Under the pieces are notes generated by a model that did no database searches, was not told the origin of the DNA, and saw nothing but the letters and a program-made list of their open reading frames with translations. Both the position numbers and the translations under genes were made by a program. From the IMG/VR virus record IMGVR_UViG_3300030102_006286, positions 1 through 20,744 of that record: a DNA stretch of 20,744 nt; one strand, 5' to 3'. Each line of letters opens with the position of its first letter. Position 1 is the stretch's first letter. This DNA is from a virus. This document shows positions 1 to 15,200 of the stretch, in pieces.

Positions 1-2153
1 TCACTACCACCAACTAGATCGGCATACAGACAACCATCTTCTTCCTCTCCGCAACATGTCTTGGTGTTACCCGGACAATCTGGATCAACATAGACATCAC
101 AGTCGTTGTACACTCTCCATCTAAGAGAGGCGACTGTATCAAAACCCGGATGTCCAGGCGCCGAGCATTGTGTATCATCACAATTACAACACTCAGACTG
201 ATCTTCATTACCACAAGTAAACAGGTTACATGATTTTTGTAGTTCCTCTAAAATCTCTGGAGTAAATGAGTCTAAACCACCACTATAAACCACACCACAT
301 GGCTGTTGTGGTTCGCTGCCACACTCCTCTGATTTTGAACAACACCATACTACGATGCGTCCACAGTCTAGACAAGGCTCACCTAAATTATTTAACGTGT
401 CACACTTTACCCCCGGAGTAAAGTAGGATTCCTGATTTACACCGTCACCACCAAGCAACTCACATAAACTCTCTGTCATTGGGGGGCTACCCGGCTGTCC
501 CGGACTGGCCTCGTCTGTGCAGAAATAGAATCCATCCCCGTCAAGATCGTATATGCAACAAGAACCACATGGATCATCTAGGGATGAACAACAGGGTTGC
601 TCATCACAACTGAATGGTCTCCAAGTGGTTTGAAGGAATGGAGCGTCATCAGCCAAACAATCCTCTAGTGAATATGGTTCTCTGCATTCAATAACTTCAT
701 TTGCTACCGTATCGAAGTAACAACAGGATCCAATCAAATCACACGCTTCGTCACATACTGTTCCCTCTCCTCGGAAGAATCCTCCTAAGTATCTACACAT
801 ATCCGCAGACTGAATTGAACATTCTGAGATTCCCGGTTGAAGGGAAGTGCAACACGCTCCAGTTGCTCCAATTCCTCCGTCAATAGGACCTTCTCCACAA
901 GAGGTGAGCAAATTGGGATTTTCGTCTACATTGAAATCATTACAGTCAAAACAGTTGTCAATGGAAACGACTTGTTTATTCTCTGTAAAGTTAAACACAA
1001 GTGGATTTCCGTTGTGATCCACTCTAGTTCTAAAATCATCTATTGTGTTGGGTTCTAATACACTACCTAAATTTGGATCAATACCCCATTTTGCAATTGT
1101 TCCATACCATTCATCACGAACACTTATGAATTCAAAAAGATCACCAGCACCACTAAAACATGGAGCCTTAGTATAAGGCCACTTGATGTTTCTTGACCAT
1201 CTAGGAATGATAGGAGTAGTTCCTGTCGCACCGACAACTAATAACTTAAATGAAGTGCTTATATTGGGATCGTTTGGTGGGGCGATATTTACTAGAACGG
1301 GAGGTGGTCCATAAGTTCCACCCATCTGCATCGTATCTAAGACAAATAAACCCTCTGCTGTTCCGCCTGACTGATGCTCTATACCACAACTAAATCCACC
1401 TGCACCCTCGATGCAAAGTGATTGACAGTAACCATGTTTAGATGTAGGGGTAGCAATATTTCCCGGAAGACCTGTGTCTGTGCCTGGTAATGATAATAGT
1501 TTTTCTTGTCCCTCTCTGTACCTGTATGAAACGAAAGATGTAGACTTTGTTTCTTCATTATAAAAGGTTCCAGATGCACCTTCCAGTTTTACAACGTCTT
1601 GGTTTCCAGTTGATGTCTTTTTAGTGGAGACTAAGAACTGTCCGGCAGTTCCGCTAATAGCATCTAGATAGCCTGCTTTGCCTCTGTCAATCGTTATTGT
1701 AACTTCTTCGTCTGTTGAACTTATTCTTGCGTTTCTTCCAAGAACCTTAAGAGGTCTAATTACAATTTCATCAAGTGCAGGATCATCTTTGAAAACACCT
1801 AAAACATCAGCATCAGAGATTTCTGAATCAAAGGTATTACCACCACCAATTATAGTTGTTAGGTTTCCAGTCGCACCAACAATTCTACCGGGAGTTGTAT
1901 ATGCGAAAGTAACTCCAGTATTTTCGGAGTCGGTGAAAAACTCTTGATAAAGTTTTCCGTTTACAATTCTAGTGCCAAGAGGACTAAATCCACCAGTAAA
2001 ACCAAATCCGGTGTAACCCCTTGGACCTGTTTGTCCAAATCCGGTGGGACCTGTGGGACCTGTTCCGCCTCTACCACCAGTTCCCCCTGTGGGACCGGTG
2101 TTTCCGGTTATCTTGAAGTGACTACTTTGTAAACCGATTCGCATTACTGGCAT
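1..2153 (-). CDS. Collagen-like, cysteine-rich virion/fibre protein (partial, C-terminus off the left edge)
   Basis: An open frame of 717 codons runs from an ATG at 2153 to the window edge with no stop, so the gene is incomplete. The start is preceded by AAGGTGG on the minus strand at suitable spacing, 14 nt after the stop of the upstream gene. Residues 17-55 are Gly-X-Y triplets, many of them Gly-Pro-Thr, with two one-residue phase breaks, which suggests a short collagen-like trimeric shaft. A middle part of about 350 residues has no motif I recognise. From about residue 400 the chain becomes very rich in cysteine and contains imperfect tandem repeats starting with Cys-Cys pairs at 434, 477, 532 and 604. 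The first has the pattern CC..C..C..GG.F.G.GT.C. As the last gene of a baseplate and fibre operon it is probably a fibre or surface-exposed appendage. The receptor is unknown and the function is inferred from position and composition only. Confidence 0.75.
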   Translation of the reverse strand, partial: MPVMRIGLQSSHFKITGNTGPTGGTGGRGGTGPTGPTGFGQTGPRGYTGFGFTGGFSPLGTRIVNGKLYQEFFTDSENTGVTFAYTTPGRIVGATGNLTTIIGGGNTFDSEISDADVLGVFKDDPALDEIVIRPLKVLGRNARISSTDEEVTITIDRGKAGYLDAISGTAGQFLVSTKKTSTGNQDVVKLEGASGTFYNEETKSTSFVSYRYREGQEKLLSLPGTDTGLPGNIATPTSKHGYCQSLCIEGAGGFSCGIEHQSGGTAEGLFVLDTMQMGGTYGPPPVLVNIAPPNDPNISTSFKLLVVGATGTTPIIPRWSRNIKWPYTKAPCFSGAGDLFEFISVRDEWYGTIAKWGIDPNLGSVLEPNTIDDFRTRVDHNGNPLVFNFTENKQVVSIDNCFDCNDFNVDENPNLLTSCGEGPIDGGIGATGACCTSLQPGISECSIQSADMCRYLGGFFRGEGTVCDEACDLIGSCCYFDTVANEVIECREPYSLEDCLADDAPFLQTTWRPFSCDEQPCCSSLDDPCGSCCIYDLDGDGFYFCTDEASPGQPGSPPMTESLCELLGGDGVNQESYFTPGVKCDTLNNLGEPCLDCGRIVVWCCSKSEECGSEPQQPCGVVYSGGLDSFTPEILEELQKSCNLFTCGNEDQSECCNCDDTQCSAPGHPGFDTVASLRWRVYNDCDVYVDPDCPGNTKTCCGEEEDGCLYADLVGGS

Positions 2154-2167
2154 CAATCACCACCTTT

Positions 2168-3430
2168 TCATGTAGAAGTTAGATATGTACCAGTCTTGCT
2201 ACTCGTCACACCAAATTTACTAGAGTGAGTATCGATATTAGTATCGTGATCGGATAGTAGTGCAGCAACGTCAGAAATTGTTTTTCCTTGTCCCTGAGAC
2301 AATGCGGTTAGTTTACTAGTTACTTCTAGTTCTGAGACAGTAAGTTTATCATGAACAGTTACAGCATTTAGGTTCCTAAGTTTCATAAAGGGAACAGGTG
2401 TTTCTCTCATGTTTACTCCACCATAACCGATGATCCGTTCATTATCTCTGTCTTTGACAATTCCCGGTGTGTAAACATGAGTAATGGTTACTCCAGTTGG
2501 TTTCCCGTATGATTTACCATCAACAAAAACAGTTGAGTCTGTAGTAAATATATTTGACGTTCCATCCAGCGTAGGGTTTACTTCTATTTCTACTTGATTT
2601 TTTGAAATTACTGAAGTGATTCTACCCTTTGTCGTTTCTCGTCCATTCTTTTGGTTGTAAATGCCAGGGGTATTTAATATGCTTGTCGAAAAACTATCCC
2701 TTGATGAATCATCTATCGATATAACTGCGGTGTAACCATACTTCGTCCCGTACAGTGAGTAAAAATCAGAGAACTCATCAACCGCTAACTTGAGAGGTTC
2801 GTCTACTCTATACCAACCATCTCCAAGATAATTTTTTGTACCATAAGTTACGACATCGATAACCTGTCCCAACTTTGCGAGTGAGTCTTCACCCTCAGAT
2901 GCAACTACATTTCCACCGACTTGATATCCAATATAATTCTGAACAATGGCATTGAAGTCGCCGTTATCTGCCATCTGTAGAACTGGTTTTACAATATTGG
3001 TGGGTTCGGATGGTGCGTAACTCTGAAGTAAACCTCCAGTAATCGCACTCAAGAAGTAGATGTCATTACCACCAGCACCACCAGTGCTTCCTAGAGGACC
3101 GTCACCATCGGGATCAAATACTGCAAAAGCACCCTCTGGATATTTCATCTGTCCGGAAAGAACTAGAGTGACATTCGCATCAGTTACAGCCTCGACTACA
3201 CCGATGACTTCTGCGGTTGCAGGATCATTCGCTTGTGCTTTGGTGTAAATTTTTGGATTACTTAGAACATCATATCGAACAACATCACCCGCAGTGATAC
3301 CATCCACGATACCACCCTGCACTGTTGGTGTGTTAGGAACAACGGTGATAAGTCTGCTACCAACAGCCTGTAGACTGTTGATTGTTAAATTACCCGCTAT
3401 GTTTGAACTATTGTTGCAAGATGATGACAT
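2168..3430 (-). CDS. Fibre-type virion structural protein sharing a repeated domain with its neighbour
   Basis: This protein has 420 residues. The ATG at 3430 has a strong GGAGG seven bases upstream, and a second ATG four bases earlier is out of frame. Residues about 47-170 form a domain that also appears twice in the 793-residue neighbour. Shared landmarks are GDVVRYD, AEVIGVVEAV, a YFLSA..GGL segment and a KPV strand followed by a short Asp/Gly turn. A Gly/Asp-rich insertion (about 107-122) sits inside it. The C-terminal part (about 330-420) looks polar and could form a helical or trimerisation region. No enzymatic motif is visible. Position, composition and the shared domain suggest a short fibre or baseplate-rim protein. 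The exact T4 counterpart cannot be assigned; genes 10 to 12 occupy this place in T4. Confidence 0.7.
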   Translation of the reverse strand: MSSSCNNSSNIAGNLTINSLQAVGSRLITVVPNTPTVQGGIVDGITAGDVVRYDVLSNPKIYTKAQANDPATAEVIGVVEAVTDANVTLVLSGQMKYPEGAFAVFDPDGDGPLGSTGGAGGNDIYFLSAITGGLLQSYAPSEPTNIVKPVLQMADNGDFNAIVQNYIGYQVGGNVVASEGEDSLAKLGQVIDVVTYGTKNYLGDGWYRVDEPLKLAVDEFSDFYSLYGTKYGYTAVISIDDSSRDSFSTSILNTPGIYNQKNGRETTKGRITSVISKNQVEIEVNPTLDGTSNIFTTDSTVFVDGKSYGKPTGVTITHVYTPGIVKDRDNERIIGYGGVNMRETPVPFMKLRNLNAVTVHDKLTVSELEVTSKLTALSQGQGKTISDVAALLSDHDTNIDTHSSKFGVTSSKTGTYLTST

Positions 3431-3444
3431 TCATGTTCCTCCGA

Positions 3445-5826
3445 TTAACTTACTACCTGATCATCTGCTAAGAAGTCTGCGTCTGCGACATAGTGTAGGT
3501 GAATATCGTCCCACAACACCAGTCCAGAGTTTAAGAATACTCTAAACCCATCATTAGTTATGAGTTCAAACCTAACAGTGTCTACTCCGCCCGGTGCTGA
3601 TCTAGTCGAACCATCTTTTTGTGATCCGGATGTGAGTCTCATGTCTGCATTAGCAGATGCGTTGAATGCGTCTCCGGTGTGTCCACTCTCGGGCGAGAAG
3701 AAGTTAACTTTAGGAACTCTTCTCATCTCAATCGGGAATCTGTAATAATCAAAGTAAGATGGAGATGCTAGAATATGAAGAGCAGTTGGATCTACCATAC
3801 CACCAGTCATTGTTTGTGTATGAGTGTCCTGATCCAGTGCGTATGATCTTTGATAGTATCTCTTACACTTATCAAGTTCTAGTCTTAGATCTGTTGGTTC
3901 AAATACAGTCGGAACGTATCCTCTCTCTAGTTTTACCTGTGCAAGATCTAATTGACTATTTGTGTTTGTGACATCAAATCCTACATCAACATAACTGTCA
4001 GATGAGGTTGTGGAAACAGACGGAACTGTAAATGCCACACTGTATTTTTGCCACTGTGTTCCCACTCTAACCAGTCCATCGTTATAAGTGGCTCCATTCA
4101 TCCATGTTCCGATTGGAGTGTTTCTCTTCGAGGTTCCGTCATATTGAGAAACCACGAATCCCATAGTTGATCCTGTTACTCCACATTTTGCGTAGAAAGA
4201 TAGAGTTACGTCTTCACCCGCAAGAGTTTCATTATTCTCTATCCTGTTCACTAAGTAAACGTGATCTCCAGCAGGTCCACTATACCCACTAATGCTGTGC
4301 TTAGTTCTAAGGTAATATGTGGGATCTCCCTCTATTCCAATCACAGGTTGAGCGAAAGGAACCCGTTCTATGTTCGGGGAAGAACTGTAAGTTGCTGCTT
4401 GTTTGCCGGTTCCTTCCTTAGCAGTAATTCCATCAATGCGAAGCCATTTATCTGCAAGGTAAGTATTTCCGGTGTTACCATATGGAAGAGTTCCGATACC
4501 TCTTTGCCAGATATCATACCCACCATTTATTAGTAAGTTTGGTTGAATTGCTTGTCCGTATGTTGCACCGGAATTGTTTCCTAATCTATAGTTATTAGCA
4601 AATCCACCACCACCAGAACCGCGAGCCCCTGCGGATCTTTGCTGAGCCCCGTCAGGAACCTCAATTTCTCCAGTGTACTGTTGGTTGATGACAAATGCTT
4701 TGAAGTCACCACCTTGCTCCCAAACAAAGGCAAACGGTTTCGCTGCTCCGCCTGGAGGGATACCTGTGAGAAGTCCATCGACACCAATATACTGCAATCC
4801 ATAACTGCTGTTGATATTGTTGTAGTTATCAATGAGTCCGGATCCAATTACTTGGATATACTGTTGTCCTCCGAACTCAAATTTGTTCACACAAACACCA
4901 ATGGCATGTTCTAAGTTTTCATAGTTGTTTGTAAATTCAAACCAACCATTAAATCCAGTTCCCGGACGGAATCCAACAACTTTACCGGGAGTGATTGTGT
5001 GTTGGTTGTTCGCACCTTCCAACTGAACGGTGAACATGTTACTGTTTGCAGTTGCACCCGCAACAGATCCGGAAAGACCAGTTGAGAGATATTGTCCTCT
5101 ATAGTTAACAACAACTGCCTTTGATTTTCCGCTTATGTCATCATATGTAACACCAACCACCATTGGTTTGGATACCTGTCCAGAGACGATTGGTTCACTT
5201 GCAGTGAGTCCACCGGGATCCTCCGCTGAGAGGAAGTAAGAACATCCGGGGGACAGAGTTGCACCATCTGTATTTTTGAAGACACCCTCAACGACACCAG
5301 CGGTGGCAATTTCAATATAGTTTAGAGTTGGGTTGAACGTATCGACTTCGCTAAATGTAATCCCTGCAACAATACCAATCGCCTCAGCAAAACCTTGTCC
5401 GTTAGCCTGAGCATAAGTGATACCACCAGTTGCACATCTAACCACTTGTCCAAATGTAAATCCTGCGGTTTGACCATAAACTCGGAAACGAGTATTAGGA
5501 ATCTCTGTTAGATCTGGAGAGAACTTAAGTTCTCCATTTACACTAACGTCTCCGTAAAAAGTTACACCCTTATTAACAGTATCTGCGATGGTTACTCTAA
5601 ATACACCCGCGTCCAGATCCGATCCTGTAGTCGCTCCACCTTGCGGATCATTTGACGCAGTGGTTCCTAAAGTTAAATTTACACCGTCACCAGATACACC
5701 ATCATAGATCTTGATGTTGTTCAACTTACCAACAACATTTTGATTGTAGTGATTAACCCAATCATAAAATGTTGTGGTTGAAGTCAGAGTTGGTATCTGA
5801 TACTTGTTGTCGTTCGGATTTGGCAT
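3445..5826 (-). CDS. Large tail fibre/baseplate-rim protein with duplicated domain and carbohydrate-binding-like C-terminal region
   Basis: This protein has 793 residues, and its ATG is preceded by AGAAGG and, further up, an exact T4-type late promoter box. The N-terminal 110 residues include a FYDWVNHYNQN segment and a YGDVSVNGEL strand of the kind seen at the start of phage fibre shafts. Two copies of one domain follow (about 124-246 and 279-385), each with a VV.F/R strand, an AIG(I/V) strand, a Gly-Leu-Leu/Thr turn and a KP strand. A Gly/Ser-rich linker lies at 399-410. Residues 430-443 (NLLINGGYDIWQRG) and 456-461 (YLADKW) open a jelly-roll-like module that closes at about 628-644 (LAQVKLERG, FEP) and leads into CKRYYQRSY at 654-662. 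This arrangement is common in phage and prophage fibre tips and resembles carbohydrate-binding modules. A receptor-contacting fibre is the best reading, but the ligand is unknown. Confidence 0.8.
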   Translation of the reverse strand: MPNPNDNKYQIPTLTSTTTFYDWVNHYNQNVVGKLNNIKIYDGVSGDGVNLTLGTTASNDPQGGATTGSDLDAGVFRVTIADTVNKGVTFYGDVSVNGELKFSPDLTEIPNTRFRVYGQTAGFTFGQVVRCATGGITYAQANGQGFAEAIGIVAGITFSEVDTFNPTLNYIEIATAGVVEGVFKNTDGATLSPGCSYFLSAEDPGGLTASEPIVSGQVSKPMVVGVTYDDISGKSKAVVVNYRGQYLSTGLSGSVAGATANSNMFTVQLEGANNQHTITPGKVVGFRPGTGFNGWFEFTNNYENLEHAIGVCVNKFEFGGQQYIQVIGSGLIDNYNNINSSYGLQYIGVDGLLTGIPPGGAAKPFAFVWEQGGDFKAFVINQQYTGEIEVPDGAQQRSAGARGSGGGGFANNYRLGNNSGATYGQAIQPNLLINGGYDIWQRGIGTLPYGNTGNTYLADKWLRIDGITAKEGTGKQAATYSSSPNIERVPFAQPVIGIEGDPTYYLRTKHSISGYSGPAGDHVYLVNRIENNETLAGEDVTLSFYAKCGVTGSTMGFVVSQYDGTSKRNTPIGTWMNGATYNDGLVRVGTQWQKYSVAFTVPSVSTTSSDSYVDVGFDVTNTNSQLDLAQVKLERGYVPTVFEPTDLRLELDKCKRYYQRSYALDQDTHTQTMTGGMVDPTALHILASPSYFDYYRFPIEMRRVPKVNFFSPESGHTGDAFNASANADMRLTSGSQKDGSTRSAPGGVDTVRFELITNDGFRVFLNSGLVLWDDIHLHYVADADFLADDQVVS

Positions 5827-5863: not shown

Positions 5864-6709
5864 TCAATAAGTAGCCAGTAATAAATTGTTCATGTATCGA
5901 ATAGTTCTATCCGAAGGATCTATCTTAAGAACCTTACTAATCGTGTCTTCCTGTGAATCACCAGCCGTGATCGATCCAATGGATTCAAGTCTAACCTGAT
6001 ATCTAGCAGCACCCCCGGAAGCGGGATTTCCTGATGAGTAACCACCAGCCTGATCGTATAGATCAGAATCTTCCTCTGGTGTTATGGTTGAGTATGCTGT
6101 TCTAAATCCAACGAATGTCAATTCATCGGGGACACCTACAGAAATACTACCAAAATTTACTGCAATATTATTATAAACCCAATACTTTAATCCATTAAAG
6201 AATGGACTATCTTCTCCAACAGCCTCTACACCCTGAACCTCAGTTAAGAACCAACCAGGTCTAAACTGAATACTAATACCAGCAGCGGTTCCTACCTCCA
6301 CCTCAACGAGACTTGTAGATCCACCCGTGATGTATGGTGAGTCATAAGGAAAGAGTGGACAAGTTCCTTTCCATCCGGGAGTTCCTATTGTAGTTAATCC
6401 AGATCCACCGTCACCTAATGCTAAAGTTCCCTCGGGTGCATCTCCCCATAGTTCAGGTCTACCAGAGTATAACCAGTTATGATACATGTTCATTGTTAAT
6501 GTCAGTTGCATCTGAAACTGCTCTTGTATTTCATTTAGTTCAGCAGCCTGTAATGCATATCCAGGTCTAAACATGACATGTTTGTAATTTTTAGAACCAC
6601 CCTCCGAAAGTTCACCAGAAATTTCATGTTCAGTAACCCTACTTAAAAAAGGAGGACCTGACATTGGAAACTCCGCACTTAATGGGTTGGTTAATCTATC
6701 TGTAGGCAT
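5864..6709 (-). CDS. Putative fibre connector/baseplate protein in the gp9 position
   Basis: This protein has 281 residues, and its start is preceded by AAGGAGAT at ideal spacing. The N-terminal part carries FRPGYALQAAELNEIQEQ (residues 47-64), a signature seen at the N-termini of many phage tail fibre and virion-attachment proteins (the DUF4815-like pattern RPG..LQ..EL.E.Q). The rest is beta-rich and Gly/Ser-rich without a recognised motif. It follows the gp8-like gene, exactly where T4 has gene 9, and its length is close to T4 gp9 (288 residues). I saw no direct sequence match to gp9. It is plausibly the protein that joins fibres to the baseplate rim. This assignment rests on position and the N-terminal motif. 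Confidence 0.65.
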   Translation of the reverse strand: MPTDRLTNPLSAEFPMSGPPFLSRVTEHEISGELSEGGSKNYKHVMFRPGYALQAAELNEIQEQFQMQLTLTMNMYHNWLYSGRPELWGDAPEGTLALGDGGSGLTTIGTPGWKGTCPLFPYDSPYITGGSTSLVEVEVGTAAGISIQFRPGWFLTEVQGVEAVGEDSPFFNGLKYWVYNNIAVNFGSISVGVPDELTFVGFRTAYSTITPEEDSDLYDQAGGYSSGNPASGGAARYQVRLESIGSITAGDSQEDTISKVLKIDPSDRTIRYMNNLLLATY

Positions 6710-6730: not shown

Positions 6731-8638
6731 TCACACGTTTCCAGGCATCGGTAGTATGAATGTTACTGTAAAGTTTCTTTCCGCTTGTTGTCCAGCGCCT
6801 CTATTTGTAGGCATCGTCCAGTTTACATCTTTCGTTGAAAGATAGTCTCCACTAGAAACATCAATGATATCATCTCTGTCCGTTGGAACTTCTGTTTTAG
6901 TTTTGTCTAGCGTGTAGGTTATGTTTGTAGTATCATCTTTTATACTGGTTGCTTCTCTTATATCACTTGGTTTTAGAGTTAAAAGACTTAGTGTAGAGGT
7001 TCCATCGGTGTTCTTGGTTGTGTTGCTCAGTTTAGCATCACTTCGTGAGAAGATATTCGATGTCGTAGTTCTACCCTCTTCAAAAGTATTAAAACTAAAT
7101 TTACTACTCGAAGAAGATGATGAAGATGTTGTTGATGGAGTCCCTGTTACTTTAGTTATCAACGATCTGTCTACTACCTCATTCGAGTTTGTTCCTATCC
7201 CAACCTGTCTATTAGCATCAGAGACTTTGAAATTCTTGACAAGTCCAATTCTAGTGAACGAGTCGAGAGGGACTCCTAGATTATCTCTGATATAGTCACT
7301 CCTGAAAGATTTTACAATTTGGATCTTAACATCCTCTAAAACAGAGTCCAAATTACCAACAAGAGATCCGTTCAGAGGAGTTCTATTAACTTCTAATCTG
7401 TTTGAACTAAATCCATTTTCAAAAATTGAATCTAGATTGGTGATTGTTACATCTAAGTAACCATAACCACCACTAATTTTTTCCAAACCTCTAGCATAGA
7501 AAGTTTTTCCACCGTCTTCAGTATAACCAACAACATTCCATTGTGCATCATATCCGGTGTCGCTTTCTATCTTAAGAGGCCAAGGTCCCTTTCCTTTCAA
7601 TTTCAATTGTTCTTTTTCTAAACCACTAAAGTCAATAAACATGGATAGAATATTACCTCCCGGTAAGTCACACTCTGATAATATCTTTCCAAGAACTCCA
7701 ATGTTACTTGAAGGATTTGTTCGTTCGTATTTGTCTCTGATTCTTTTCTCTGGTGTGTCGGTGGCATCTTGATAGAATTTACAAGAGCAGGCTCCACATG
7801 ATGTTGGGAAAGATTCTAAATCACATCCAAGACACTTATCTCCACTAAATCCAGATCCAAGTCCTGCATCTGTGTGGGGAGTAAAGACATAACGCATGTC
7901 CATTCTTTTTGCAAAGTCTATGCACTTATAACACTTAGTGCAATCACACTTATAAAAATCTCCTGCATCATAGGCAACTCCTGTAACTTCATCGTACCAG
8001 CCTTTTTTGTGGTACAGACAACAAGTTCCCGTATTTTGCTGTTTACCAGATCCGCAAATTTGAGCGGACTCCATTCTGGGATTTGTCGAACTATAAAAAT
8101 CAGTTAATCTATCTTCATCGTCTAAGTTTCTGAAGGGTAGATATTTTCCTAAGTGAGTCAAGTCTTGTCCGGCGTCTACTTTGTACAGAGCAACCCACCG
8201 AGAGTTATCTGGATAAAGTCTTTCACAAACATTATCTGGTGTGCTTGTAGAGATAGACTGTCCCTCTAGATCCAATCTCCAATCAGGATTACCTGCTCCA
8301 CATACACACAAATATACGATATTGTTTACTGGATTGAACGCATAATAATTTCTTCGTTTTCTGTCTTGTGACCAAGCATTGTATACGTTTCCAGATGAGT
8401 AGTTTGATCTATACGCAACCTTACTCACATCTGATTGTTTTATCTTGGAATAAAATGCCAAGTTATGTTGAAGATTTTCCTTAGAGGACTCTGTGTTGTC
8501 TGTTTCAATCGAACCAACATCACCTGCAACAACCAAACCAAACTGCTCCTGATCATTCAGTGCAATCTGATCAAATGTGGTTTGGGCAACTGAAACCGCT
8601 AAGTTAGATGGTGAATTTGTTGAAGTATATCTAGCCAT
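6731..8638 (-). CDS. gp8-like baseplate wedge protein with cysteine-rich insertion
   Basis: This protein has 635 residues; T4 gp8 has 334. Similarity to gp8 is local: an N-terminal FYSKIKQSDVSKVAYRSNY region, then a NNIVYLCVCGAGNPDWRLD strand pair like the NDIVVCNS...YRCLD part of gp8, a Trp-Val-Ala-Leu-Tyr strand (148-152), and an ending NFTVTFILP that matches the C-terminal strand of gp8. Between residues 195 and 286 lies a segment with 12 cysteines, including CDCTKCYKC (231-239) and CLGC/CGACSC (269-286), absent from T4 gp8 and reminiscent of a metal-binding or disulfide knot. A run of serines (about 495-508) forms a flexible linker in the C-terminal half. Gene order (after gp6 and gp7, before the fibre connector) supports wedge gp8. 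The match is inferred from partial motifs and order, so confidence in the name is moderate. Confidence 0.6.
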   Translation of the reverse strand: MARYTSTNSPSNLAVSVAQTTFDQIALNDQEQFGLVVAGDVGSIETDNTESSKENLQHNLAFYSKIKQSDVSKVAYRSNYSSGNVYNAWSQDRKRRNYYAFNPVNNIVYLCVCGAGNPDWRLDLEGQSISTSTPDNVCERLYPDNSRWVALYKVDAGQDLTHLGKYLPFRNLDDEDRLTDFYSSTNPRMESAQICGSGKQQNTGTCCLYHKKGWYDEVTGVAYDAGDFYKCDCTKCYKCIDFAKRMDMRYVFTPHTDAGLGSGFSGDKCLGCDLESFPTSCGACSCKFYQDATDTPEKRIRDKYERTNPSSNIGVLGKILSECDLPGGNILSMFIDFSGLEKEQLKLKGKGPWPLKIESDTGYDAQWNVVGYTEDGGKTFYARGLEKISGGYGYLDVTITNLDSIFENGFSSNRLEVNRTPLNGSLVGNLDSVLEDVKIQIVKSFRSDYIRDNLGVPLDSFTRIGLVKNFKVSDANRQVGIGTNSNEVVDRSLITKVTGTPSTTSSSSSSSSKFSFNTFEEGRTTTSNIFSRSDAKLSNTTKNTDGTSTLSLLTLKPSDIREATSIKDDTTNITYTLDKTKTEVPTDRDDIIDVSSGDYLSTKDVNWTMPTNRGAGQQAERNFTVTFILPMPGNV

Positions 8639-12215: not shown

Positions 12216-15200
12216 TTACCCCAAACCTAAAATGTTAGCAAACCAGTTTGGTTCTTGTAGTTCGTCTGGAGAGACACTAGAGGTGTCTCTGACAAGAGAT
12301 AGAATCATTCTATGTGTTTGTTGTGTACTGAACGTGTGTGCTATAGCAGAAACTAACCACTTACCAGAGGTTCTAGTTGTCTGTCTCTCTGCACCTTCAG
12401 TCACCAACGGAATATTCAATCGTATGATATCTCCAGGCTGAACAGAGAAGTCACCGTTTACAACTATGGCACATTTTTGTGAACTGAGTTGAAGCATCTG
12501 AGCGTTTCTTAGTAGAGGGGTGTTGAGAGGTGTATCCCAATAAGTAGACCAGGTTCTGGTATACTCAACATACTTGGAGAAATTATCACCACGACAAGGA
12601 CAGTTGCAACTTATAGAATCGTCTAGATTACTATACAGACAACCTAACCAAGACTCACCCAACTCATCTGATATCAATTCACACTCTCTAGTTTCTTGCA
12701 GAATCGTTTGCAAATCATCGTCGGTTGGTTTCTTAGCAATACTTCCGTTTTCTTCTAACCACTCTTGAATAGAACTGAACCCACTGAACAATCCTCCAGC
12801 AAAAACTTCATCTATGGTGGATCCGGGAAGTCCCTCGAAAGATTCTATAATATTATTTTCTTGATCAACTATGAAGTACAAGTACTCGGTTAGACTCAAT
12901 ACACCAGTGGTTGGAGGTTCAATTCCTAGATCGTAAAGTTCCTCTCTTGACACAACTCTTTCGTTTCGGGGAACCAAGTCCTGACATGGACAATTGCAAT
13001 ATGGATTATCTTCGGGACAACCTAGACTACTAACAGGTCCATCTGGGTTCGCACAACGATAACCACCATCACTGCATGTATTGACGTTTCTTCTAGAGAA
13101 GACAACAAACTGTGCAGCAAAGTTTCTACCCATTTCTTGTTTTTCATTCTGTCTTTGGAAGAAATAGTCATGACCGTGTTTTGGCTCTACCATTCCATAT
13201 TCAGTGTTTCCAGTTGAGTCCCTCTTCCAGACATCTTCCTCACCGAGTGCCGATGAGTATTCTGTTTCTCGTTGCCAAATATATGAGTATCCATAGAACC
13301 AACTAGAGTTCCACCAATATCTCCATCTCCATCCGCCCCACCTACTATACGAACGACCACTTGCATTGTTACCAACGTCTGAATCCGTTTCATCAAATTC
13401 AGGATATTGATAGGTGTCGTAGAAATAGTTGTCGTAGTAGTTATACCATCTGTTCCAATACCAACCATAACTATAACGATATCGATACCTCCACCAAGCA
13501 TAATTATATCCACCATAGTAACCATAGTATCCATAATATCTTCTACCATTATAGTAAACACCTGGCGGGGGACTATACTCAAAGTGATAGTAACTGTTTG
13601 GTGCGCCTGCGGAAACATCAACACTAGACTTCGATAGCAATGAGTATGCGTTTCCCTTTCTGTTTAGGCTTGCTGCATATGGAGCATATCGGAAATCATC
13701 ACCGTAGTAATCGTATCCTTCACCCCACCAGTTACCCCGGTTTCCTGCTGTTGTATAGAAAGGTCTCTCGGTTTCCCAATCATCGGTTGGATATAGGTTC
13801 ATCGAGTCATCTGCTGTATTTTCCCCATATTCTGCTTCGTCTGGTTCAAGGGCAACGTCGAATCCGTAGGGATCAATACCAATGACAGCCATGTTTCTGT
13901 GAACACCCTGCTTACCATAAGGACCTGGAGTTATCATGACGAGATATGGAAGGAAGTATTCGTATCCAGCATCTCTGATGAATCCCTCTGGATATTCATC
14001 CAGTGTTTCCAATCCAATGGGTGTTTCAAATTCAACCCGAACGTAACTTTGCACTTCTTTTCTTTTTATACTAACAGGTTTGTATTCAGCAATGTCGTTG
14101 ATATAAAAATTATACCTTTGAGAATAATCATAAGGATTGAAACCATTAGGAAGAAGAATTTCTCCATTGTTCGGATGCCATTGTGGTGCTATCACACCCC
14201 ACGGAGGACCTTGCTCGTCGTCCTGAAAAATCTCGCTGCTTGGACCATACTCACAGGGATTTCCTTCCCAACCAACTGACCACCTGTGTTGATCCAATTC
14301 CTCCATCGTTACGTTTGGACCTCCATAGAAAAAGGTTTCCGGTTGAACGTGTACCGGGCAACTATAGGTAAGGTAGTCACAAGGAACGCCTGGTTCATTC
14401 GTACCTTCTCGACAACAACCTCTACAATAGAAATTTTGATGCCTACCTCTAACCTCTCCCCACCACCTTTGTGTCGAATCTCTAAATGCACTAGGTCCTG
14501 CGGTTTCAAAGTCCATATATTTTTGATCATATATTGGATGTCCACCTAGTGCTGTTGGATCAATCGATGGATCGTTTCCAAGGTACGCATTGTATATCCA
14601 CTCACCAAGTAACTCGTCTCTTACGTTATATTTTCTTGCGAACTGCTCATAGCGACTACCTCTTAAAGATTTTCGTTGAACACTCTTAACATTGAAAAGA
14701 GAATGTGGAGTGGTAGTGATATTTAACTTATCTATTTCTGGTTGCTTGGATATGAAATATGCTCGTTTGTTCCAGTGCCTATCATACGCACCTAAAAACT
14801 CTTCTTTATATTGAAGCCATTCTTCCAAACGATCTCTCAGTCTCGTCAAAGCACTCTGAGCAGCATTTATTCTTATTGCACATGCAGCACCAGCCTCATC
14901 AATATTGTCTACACATAAGATGTAATCCTGACCTGAAAGTCCATTGCACTGACTGAAATCTCCAGTTCCTTCAGGATTACAATACCAACATTTAAAACCA
15001 CGAACCTCTTCAGCCGTGTAGCAATCTCCACACTCGGGTTCGTCGTCGGGGTATCCCCAAGGTCCATTTTGACAAGCGTCTAAATATTCTTCGTTGGCTA
15101 GAATAGCAGTTTGTAATCTTGTGATTTCCAGATCGATCACATAGTTTGAAAAGTCAGGAACCTCCCGTTTGAGATAGTAAAATTGTCCCAGAGTTTCATT

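Follow-up and report, generated by a model that had tools for sequence, protein, structure and literature searches.

The window considered here is a stretch of 20,744 nucleotides (positions 1 to 20,744 of the 28,027-base IMG/VR virus record IMGVR_UViG_3300030102_006286), derived from a T4-like marine bacterial virus. On its minus strand lie two adjacent genes, coding for a 793-residue fibre protein and a 420-residue protein, across which a single small, barrel-like beta domain of about 130 residues occurs three times. Profile searches show this domain to be homologous to gp81 and gp82, the beads of the neck fibre of Anabaena phage A-1(L) (OR360731), a link for which no report was found in the open-access literature searched. 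We regard the three copies as probably being related beads. Two of them, of different old types, would be joined in the larger protein, with a presumed N-terminal anchor ahead of them and a carbohydrate-binding-like C-terminal module behind, and the third begins the next protein.

A beta domain in three copies

The first-pass annotation, made from the letters of the window, had claimed one beta-rich domain present three times in two adjacent fibre genes, at residues 124-246 (copy A) and 279-385 (copy B) of the 793-residue protein and 47-170 (copy C) of the 420-residue protein, which map to 5089-5457, 4672-4992 and 2921-3292, respectively. The genes and the bead domains as delimited here are:

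3445..5826, minus strand: gene of the 793-residue fibre protein (open reading frame, ORF)
5077..5499, minus strand: bead domain A, residues about 110-250 of the 793-residue protein (hidden Markov model hit)
4660..5034, minus strand: bead domain B, residues about 265-389 of the 793-residue protein (found by profile-profile comparison)
2168..3430, minus strand: gene of the 420-residue protein (ORF)
2912..3337, minus strand: bead domain C, residues 32-173 of the 420-residue protein (hidden Markov model hit; predicted local distance difference test score, pLDDT, mostly 80-93 except at about 100-120)

The four motifs on which the claim was built are present in the same order in A, B and C: VV (VVR at 128, VVG at 283 and VVR at 50), (A/V)IG (AIG at 149, AIG at 308 and VIG at 75), the G(L)L/T turn (GGLT at 205, GLLT at 351 and GGLL at 132) and KP (SKP at 219, AKP at 362 and VKP at 147). 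Compared as single segments by blastp, A and C match at an expectation value (E) of 1.5e-6, and neither A-B (2.2) nor B-C (2.6) is significant; with profiles of four sequences, A-C alone is significant (5.8e-7). Once relatives from viral contigs are added, profiles of 7-8 sequences join all three pairs (A-B 9e-9, B-C 1.5e-7, A-C 7e-19), with 14 control comparisons to other parts of the same proteins giving E of at least 0.16. Larger profiles, with 56 sequences for A, 27 for B and 59 for C, do so at 2e-10 for A-B, 1.7e-9 for B-C and 9.4e-31 for A-C. When the columns were shuffled, none of 200 trials each for B-C and A-C reached the observed score. One of 200 for A-B beat the observed 54.1, scoring 134.1 over 23 columns, which we take to be an aligner artefact; the next best score when this set was repeated was 23.7, and a second A-B set of 200 peaked at 20.7. 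Further, a profile seeded on copy B of three viruses, from which matches overlapping strong A or C hits had been excluded, detects the window's own A in register (residues 111-246, E 1.9e-5), and tandem bead copies within relatives are recognised at E down to 2e-30. That A, B and C are copies of one domain is confirmed.

The AlphaFold models of the two proteins (mean pLDDT 70.7 and 79.4) concur: the order of strands, compared by eye, is alike in A (112-239), B (264-379) and C (26-163), except that the fifth strand of B is split in two and that its strand four is preceded by a short helix (302-307). Neither outcome that the first-pass annotation had named as refuting, differing predicted folds or a profile alignment lacking significance, was observed. 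The PDB fold search of the 793-residue model was filled by the part resembling a carbohydrate-binding module (CBM), and A and B are supported by strand order and profiles. The search for further copies that the first-pass annotation proposed yielded none: in a profile search of the virus's own record A and C pass and B does not, and no bead was found in the neighbouring collagen-like protein. A profile seeded on A and C reaches B at E 0.12 only. No copy in the window matches a Pfam or PHROG family, and PHROG matches are scattered within the bead family at large (3 of 73 members, best 4.4e-5), which is why these bead proteins go unnamed.

Beads of A-1(L), other cultured phages and marine relatives

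Sequence searches of solved structures returned nothing for the 420-residue protein and two chance-level rows for the 793-residue protein. A 73-row bead alignment (A8) gave five weak rows, and one of these, at 0.055 to residues 125-219 of the gp82 chain, became the lead to A-1(L); the matched part is named gp82C in the source, where it could not be modelled in the map (PMC10966104). Direct tblastn of cultured phages with the three copies (E up to 10) was uninformative, giving none for A, two Serratia phage records at E 1 for C and four S-CAM9 records at E 5 for B, so that profiles were needed. On a test set of 320 ORFs from A-1(L), 11b, lambda (part), phi29 and T1, a general bead profile found gp81 (5e-10), a 168-residue protein of 11b (1.8e-8) and gp82 (4e-5), followed by a T1 ORF at 0.0084 and with the best reversed ORF at 0.1; across the bead profiles the best reversed controls lay between 0.027 and 0.45. 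Built separately, the A profile matched gp81 (4e-8), 11b (1.7e-7) and gp82 (0.0015), the B profile gp82 only (1.3e-7) and the C profile gp82 (4e-4) and gp81 (6e-4). The best A-1(L) counterpart of A is the repeating bead gp81 and that of B the base bead gp82. The A-1(L) bead chain consists of gp82, gp80 and some 14 trimers of gp81; it was seen both on virions and with recombinant proteins, and a model of the chain was fitted into a 6-Å map (PMC10966104).

The 11b protein, PHG11b_32 of Flavobacterium phage 11b (L174:3866-4372), is a hypothetical protein whose gene lies downstream of that for the major capsid protein, in a series of unnamed genes. A tblastn search with gp81 matched 63 phage records. 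Among Stenotrophomonas phages, 12 of 15 records show a gap of 99-114 bases between the end of the gp81 match and a following match to the C-terminal module of the 793-residue protein (the other three are not among the 40 gp81 matches listed), and profile comparison shows this module to be homologous, on sequence grounds, to the fibre protein that follows the free bead gene in these phages. In phage Moby, the B profile finds gp198 (2.4e-5), the A profile gp197 (9e-4; only 0.011 with the general profile) and the profile of the C-terminal module family gp196 (4.9e-38). In DSS3phi2, gp33 matches B (6e-5) and gp34 matches A (1.4e-5); the matches in YMC17/07/R4900a are weaker (B 0.0073, A 5e-4). B-like and A-like beads are two neighbouring genes in A-1(L), Moby and DSS3phi2. 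The Moby genes gp200-gp196 (L180:6064-9598) succeed one another as head fiber, unnamed, B-like bead, A-like bead and tail fiber genes, a run that looks like a whole bead-fibre operon.

Among relatives from viral contigs, where two of the searches took at most 80 loci each and the counts hold for the loci fetched, an iterated profile recognised the bead domain in 187 proteins at E <1e-4 (909 distinct ORFs), and both members of 120 adjacent gene pairs, 65 of them non-redundant, carry beads. Pairs were required to be on the same strand with a gap of -30 to 400 bases, redundancy was set at 70% shared 5-mers, and two loci (L066, L069) contribute two pairs each. Loci fetched by bead patterns are biased towards having the bead; in a less biased set, fetched by patterns of the C-terminal module and confirmed with the whole 793-residue protein, bead A is present in 37 of 39 non-redundant proteins, a B copy in 27 of 39 and an adjacent bead gene in 32 of 39, and of the seven proteins lacking the latter, four (L123, L138, L140, L158) stop where the fetched locus stops or close to that point. 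The two-gene arrangement is shown by these sequence comparisons to be conserved. At two loci (L166:5152-6987 and L171:3733-6531) the C-terminal module is present and no bead was found. The domain occurs one to three times per record in the 26 virus records searched whole; in one (G010:C1:6067-6420, the record of L096) a single bead lies within a 2192-residue open frame. L066 and L069 each have, between two bead-bearing genes, a free bead gene (5950-6444, 164 residues, and 5950-6453, 167 residues).

These relatives also bear on how the copies arose, which the first-pass annotation had put down to duplication within and between the neighbouring genes. A tree of 149 copies, whose midpoint root serves the drawing alone, contains a 27-row group (branch support 100/100) that unites 25 B copies with the second copies of L015 and L036; the second-gene copies fall on one side of a branch whose support is not strong (76/80), and the first copies need three changes. 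The copies cluster by position and not by virus, so the duplications predate these viruses. Seven second copies (L018, L075, L076, L077, L078, L083, L099) are placed not in the B group but with copies of the first and second genes, which suggests repeated origins of tandem copies. The part of the claim that placed a duplication within the 793-residue gene is unsupported, because A resembles C, which belongs to the other gene, more than it resembles B, because B groups with the B-position copies of other viruses, and because B-like and A-like beads are separate neighbouring genes in the three cultured phages named above; a recent duplication inside this gene was rejected on the first two of these grounds.

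Gene neighbourhood and remaining parts of the two proteins

The window encodes the T4-like baseplate proteins gp53, gp25, gp6 (28.6% identical to gp6 of cyanophage S-RSM4) and a wedge protein, recognised by Pfam, together with additional wedge matches (PHROG) and a tail tube cap. These genes are followed on the minus strand by those of a 281-residue protein, whose DUF4815 match is slightly short of the cut-off, the 793- and 420-residue proteins and a collagen-like protein truncated where the contig stops. In relative L004 the order continues with collagen-like proteins, two unnamed genes and a run of structural genes (head-tail adaptor, head closure, sheath stabilizer, small and large terminase subunits, sheath, tube and portal), and the pair sits between the wedge genes and gp13. 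From the window and L004 together, the two genes can be said to occupy the T4 slots of gp9-gp12/wac. Family profiles of both proteins compared with 13 T4 proteins found no homology to gp9, gp10, gp11, gp12 or wac, none scoring below 0.001 and the best being 0.0051, to gp7. The remaining features are:

5506..5826, minus strand: N-terminal region of the 793-residue protein, residues 1-107, presumed anchor; conserved in relatives, mostly low pLDDT
3448..4584, minus strand: C-terminal module of the 793-residue protein, residues 415-793
3919..4545, minus strand: CBM4/CBM22-like jelly roll (predicted fold), residues 428-636, within the C-terminal module
2714..2869, minus strand: residues 188-239 of the 420-residue protein, aligned to the Pfam Collar of relative L141; putative degenerate collar
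2213..2269, minus strand: C-terminal helix of the 420-residue protein, residues 388-406, possible coil (AlphaFold model)
3..2156, minus strand: collagen-like GPTG protein, the next gene, cut by the contig end (ORF; weak tail fiber PHROG matches)

A profile of residues 1-107 had no significant match in T4 gp9-gp15 or in the ORFs of Moby or A-1(L). Within the C-terminal module, residues 420-730 match the tail fiber protein family phrog_4492 (1.9e-39), and the predicted jelly roll gives a best Z of 15.0 over 161 residues (root-mean-square deviation, rmsd, 2.8; Foldseek E 3.5e-7). The 420-residue protein has no Pfam or PHROG match, Collar (PF07484) included; among 42 relatives Collar is matched in two, and a Collar comes after the bead in L018 (3e-10) and L141 (3e-8). 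Of the modular fibre or rim that the first-pass annotation had suggested, the fibre is borne out by the relatives and the gene order, and nothing speaks for the rim.

Three sequence peculiarities were seen in other window proteins, all encoded on the minus strand. A 1503-residue ORF between gp25 and gp53 has, at residues 1064-1143 (13299-13538), 35 Tyr, Trp or Phe among 80 residues. Of the 718 residues of the collagen-like protein (3-2156), 43 are cysteines, which lie after the GPTG repeats and include seven CC pairs. A 635-residue protein (6731-8638) carries at residue 231 a CDCTKCYKC cluster, also present in relatives L003 and L004, which is a possible metal site.

A putative bead-bearing fibre and its alternatives

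The arrangement that we consider probable would work as follows. Residues 1-107 would anchor the 793-residue protein; beads A and B would form part of its shaft, along which beads may trimerise and stack; and the predicted jelly roll with the rest of the C-terminal module would make up a tip that may bind host sugars. The 420-residue protein would comprise bead C, then a degenerate tail-collar stretch and then a helix, and bead C might dock on the beads of its larger neighbour, by analogy with gp81 on gp82, the whole fibre being placed on the baseplate or the neck. A broader proposal, which we hold more tentatively, is that phages share two ancient types of bead, one serving as base or adaptor (B, gp82-like) and the other as repeat (A and C, gp81-like). 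Some viruses would use them as free, self-assembling subunits of neck fibres, and a large group of marine T4-like viruses as fused domains of their fibres; the free bead of relatives such as L066 and L069 could then polymerise as a spacer of variable length setting the reach of the fibre.

Several observations weigh against this picture. The models are those of monomers. The gene order spans both the baseplate-fibre and the whisker slots. The match of the A profile to gp82 (0.0015) is barely better than a chance match to a T1 ORF (0.012), several of the bead matches in Moby and YMC17 are weak (0.0009 to 0.013), and the whole Moby record scanned with A8 at E 0.001 gave nothing. No counterpart of gp82N was recognised in the window proteins, and the 793-residue chain places A ahead of B, where A-1(L) has its B-like bead, gp82, in the proximal position. 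As for sugar binding, no Pfam CBM is found in the window protein, CBM_4_9 (PF02018) appearing in only 5 of 40 relatives (best E 0.00056); and, in A-1(L), the carbohydrate-binding module of gp80 failed to bind the host and the authors doubt that the neck fibre has a role in primary recognition (PMC10966104).

A first alternative, which appears unlikely though it deserves consideration, is that there are two separate fibres, a short tail fibre resembling T4 gp12 (the 420-residue protein) and a receptor-binding fibre (the 793-residue protein), the bead serving the trimerisation of each without bead-to-bead docking. The gene order and the Collar that follows the bead in two relatives favour this; on the other side, T4 gp12 shows no bead, and the free bead genes between bead proteins in L066 and L069, together with the head-to-tail chain of A-1(L), suggest that beads meet beads.

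The predicted fold of copy C raises a further alternative. It resembles phage and herpesvirus capsid-associated chains at Z 4.4-7.8, values below 8 that may reflect a common arrangement, and all ten rows that cover copy C with at least 80 residues, among the 50 rows listed, are capsid entries. They include the P74-26 and lambda decoration proteins and the base of the phi29 head fibre; 8hdt_G, 8pkh_FP, 8qsy_JJ and 9kzj_I we take from their entry titles to be decoration proteins. The matches are of uneven quality (the top row has an rmsd of 8.1, the Pam3 row one of 3.4 over 123 residues), and Foldseek alone found no PDB match for copy C at E <=0.001. Judged from copy C, the bead fold is likely a beta-tulip, which according to a review forms trimers and has the phi29 preneck appendage among its structural relatives (PMC7602432). 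The beads could accordingly be taken as lambda gpD-like decoration proteins recruited as carbohydrate-binding or cementing modules of ordinary baseplate wedge or short fibre parts, as their position among baseplate genes would allow, with the link to the bead chain silent on role. This we hold to be improbable: gp81 and gp82 match the bead profiles by sequence and lambda D, phi29 gp8.5 and the T1 capsid proteins do not, and a beta-tulip fold would be compatible with beads in a fibre. Lastly, convergence of unrelated beta-rich fibre sequence, to which the non-significant single-sequence comparisons with B and the one high A-B shuffle might be held to point, is already disfavoured and very improbable given the reciprocal detection in register by the B-seeded profile, the independent matches of the A, B and C profiles to gp82 and the tandem copies of relatives.

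The bead domain, carried by many marine viruses in a conserved pair of genes and by several cultured phages in free genes, is tied here to the only string-of-beads fibre studied so far. This provides a testable picture of fibre building, wherein bead number and fusion could tune length, and suggests an ancient module that viruses reuse in making their arms. Set beside known systems, the 420-residue protein shares with T4 gp12 a gene-order slot and, through its two Collar-bearing relatives, the Collar, but it has no Collar match of its own and gp12 no bead that could be found. The beta-tulip decoration proteins (lambda gpD, P74-26 gp87 and the phi29 gp8.5 base) have a moderate fold likeness to copy C, yet the window beads lie in fibre proteins, are not encoded with the capsid genes and show no sequence match to them. 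Menderavirus Moby (NC_048802) has the B-like bead, the A-like bead and the C-terminal module found in the window next to one another, in three separate unfused genes beside a 'head fiber protein' gene. With gp81 and gp82 of A-1(L) the window has in common a homologous domain, neighbouring genes and both bead types; in A-1(L), however, the repeating bead is a free protein of 168 residues, used about 14 times in a fibre on the neck, whereas the window beads are fused parts of two larger proteins, whose genes occupy the baseplate-fibre slots, and the A-like bead comes first. The free bead genes of L066 and L069, each set between two bead proteins, parallel gp81 between gp82 and gp80.

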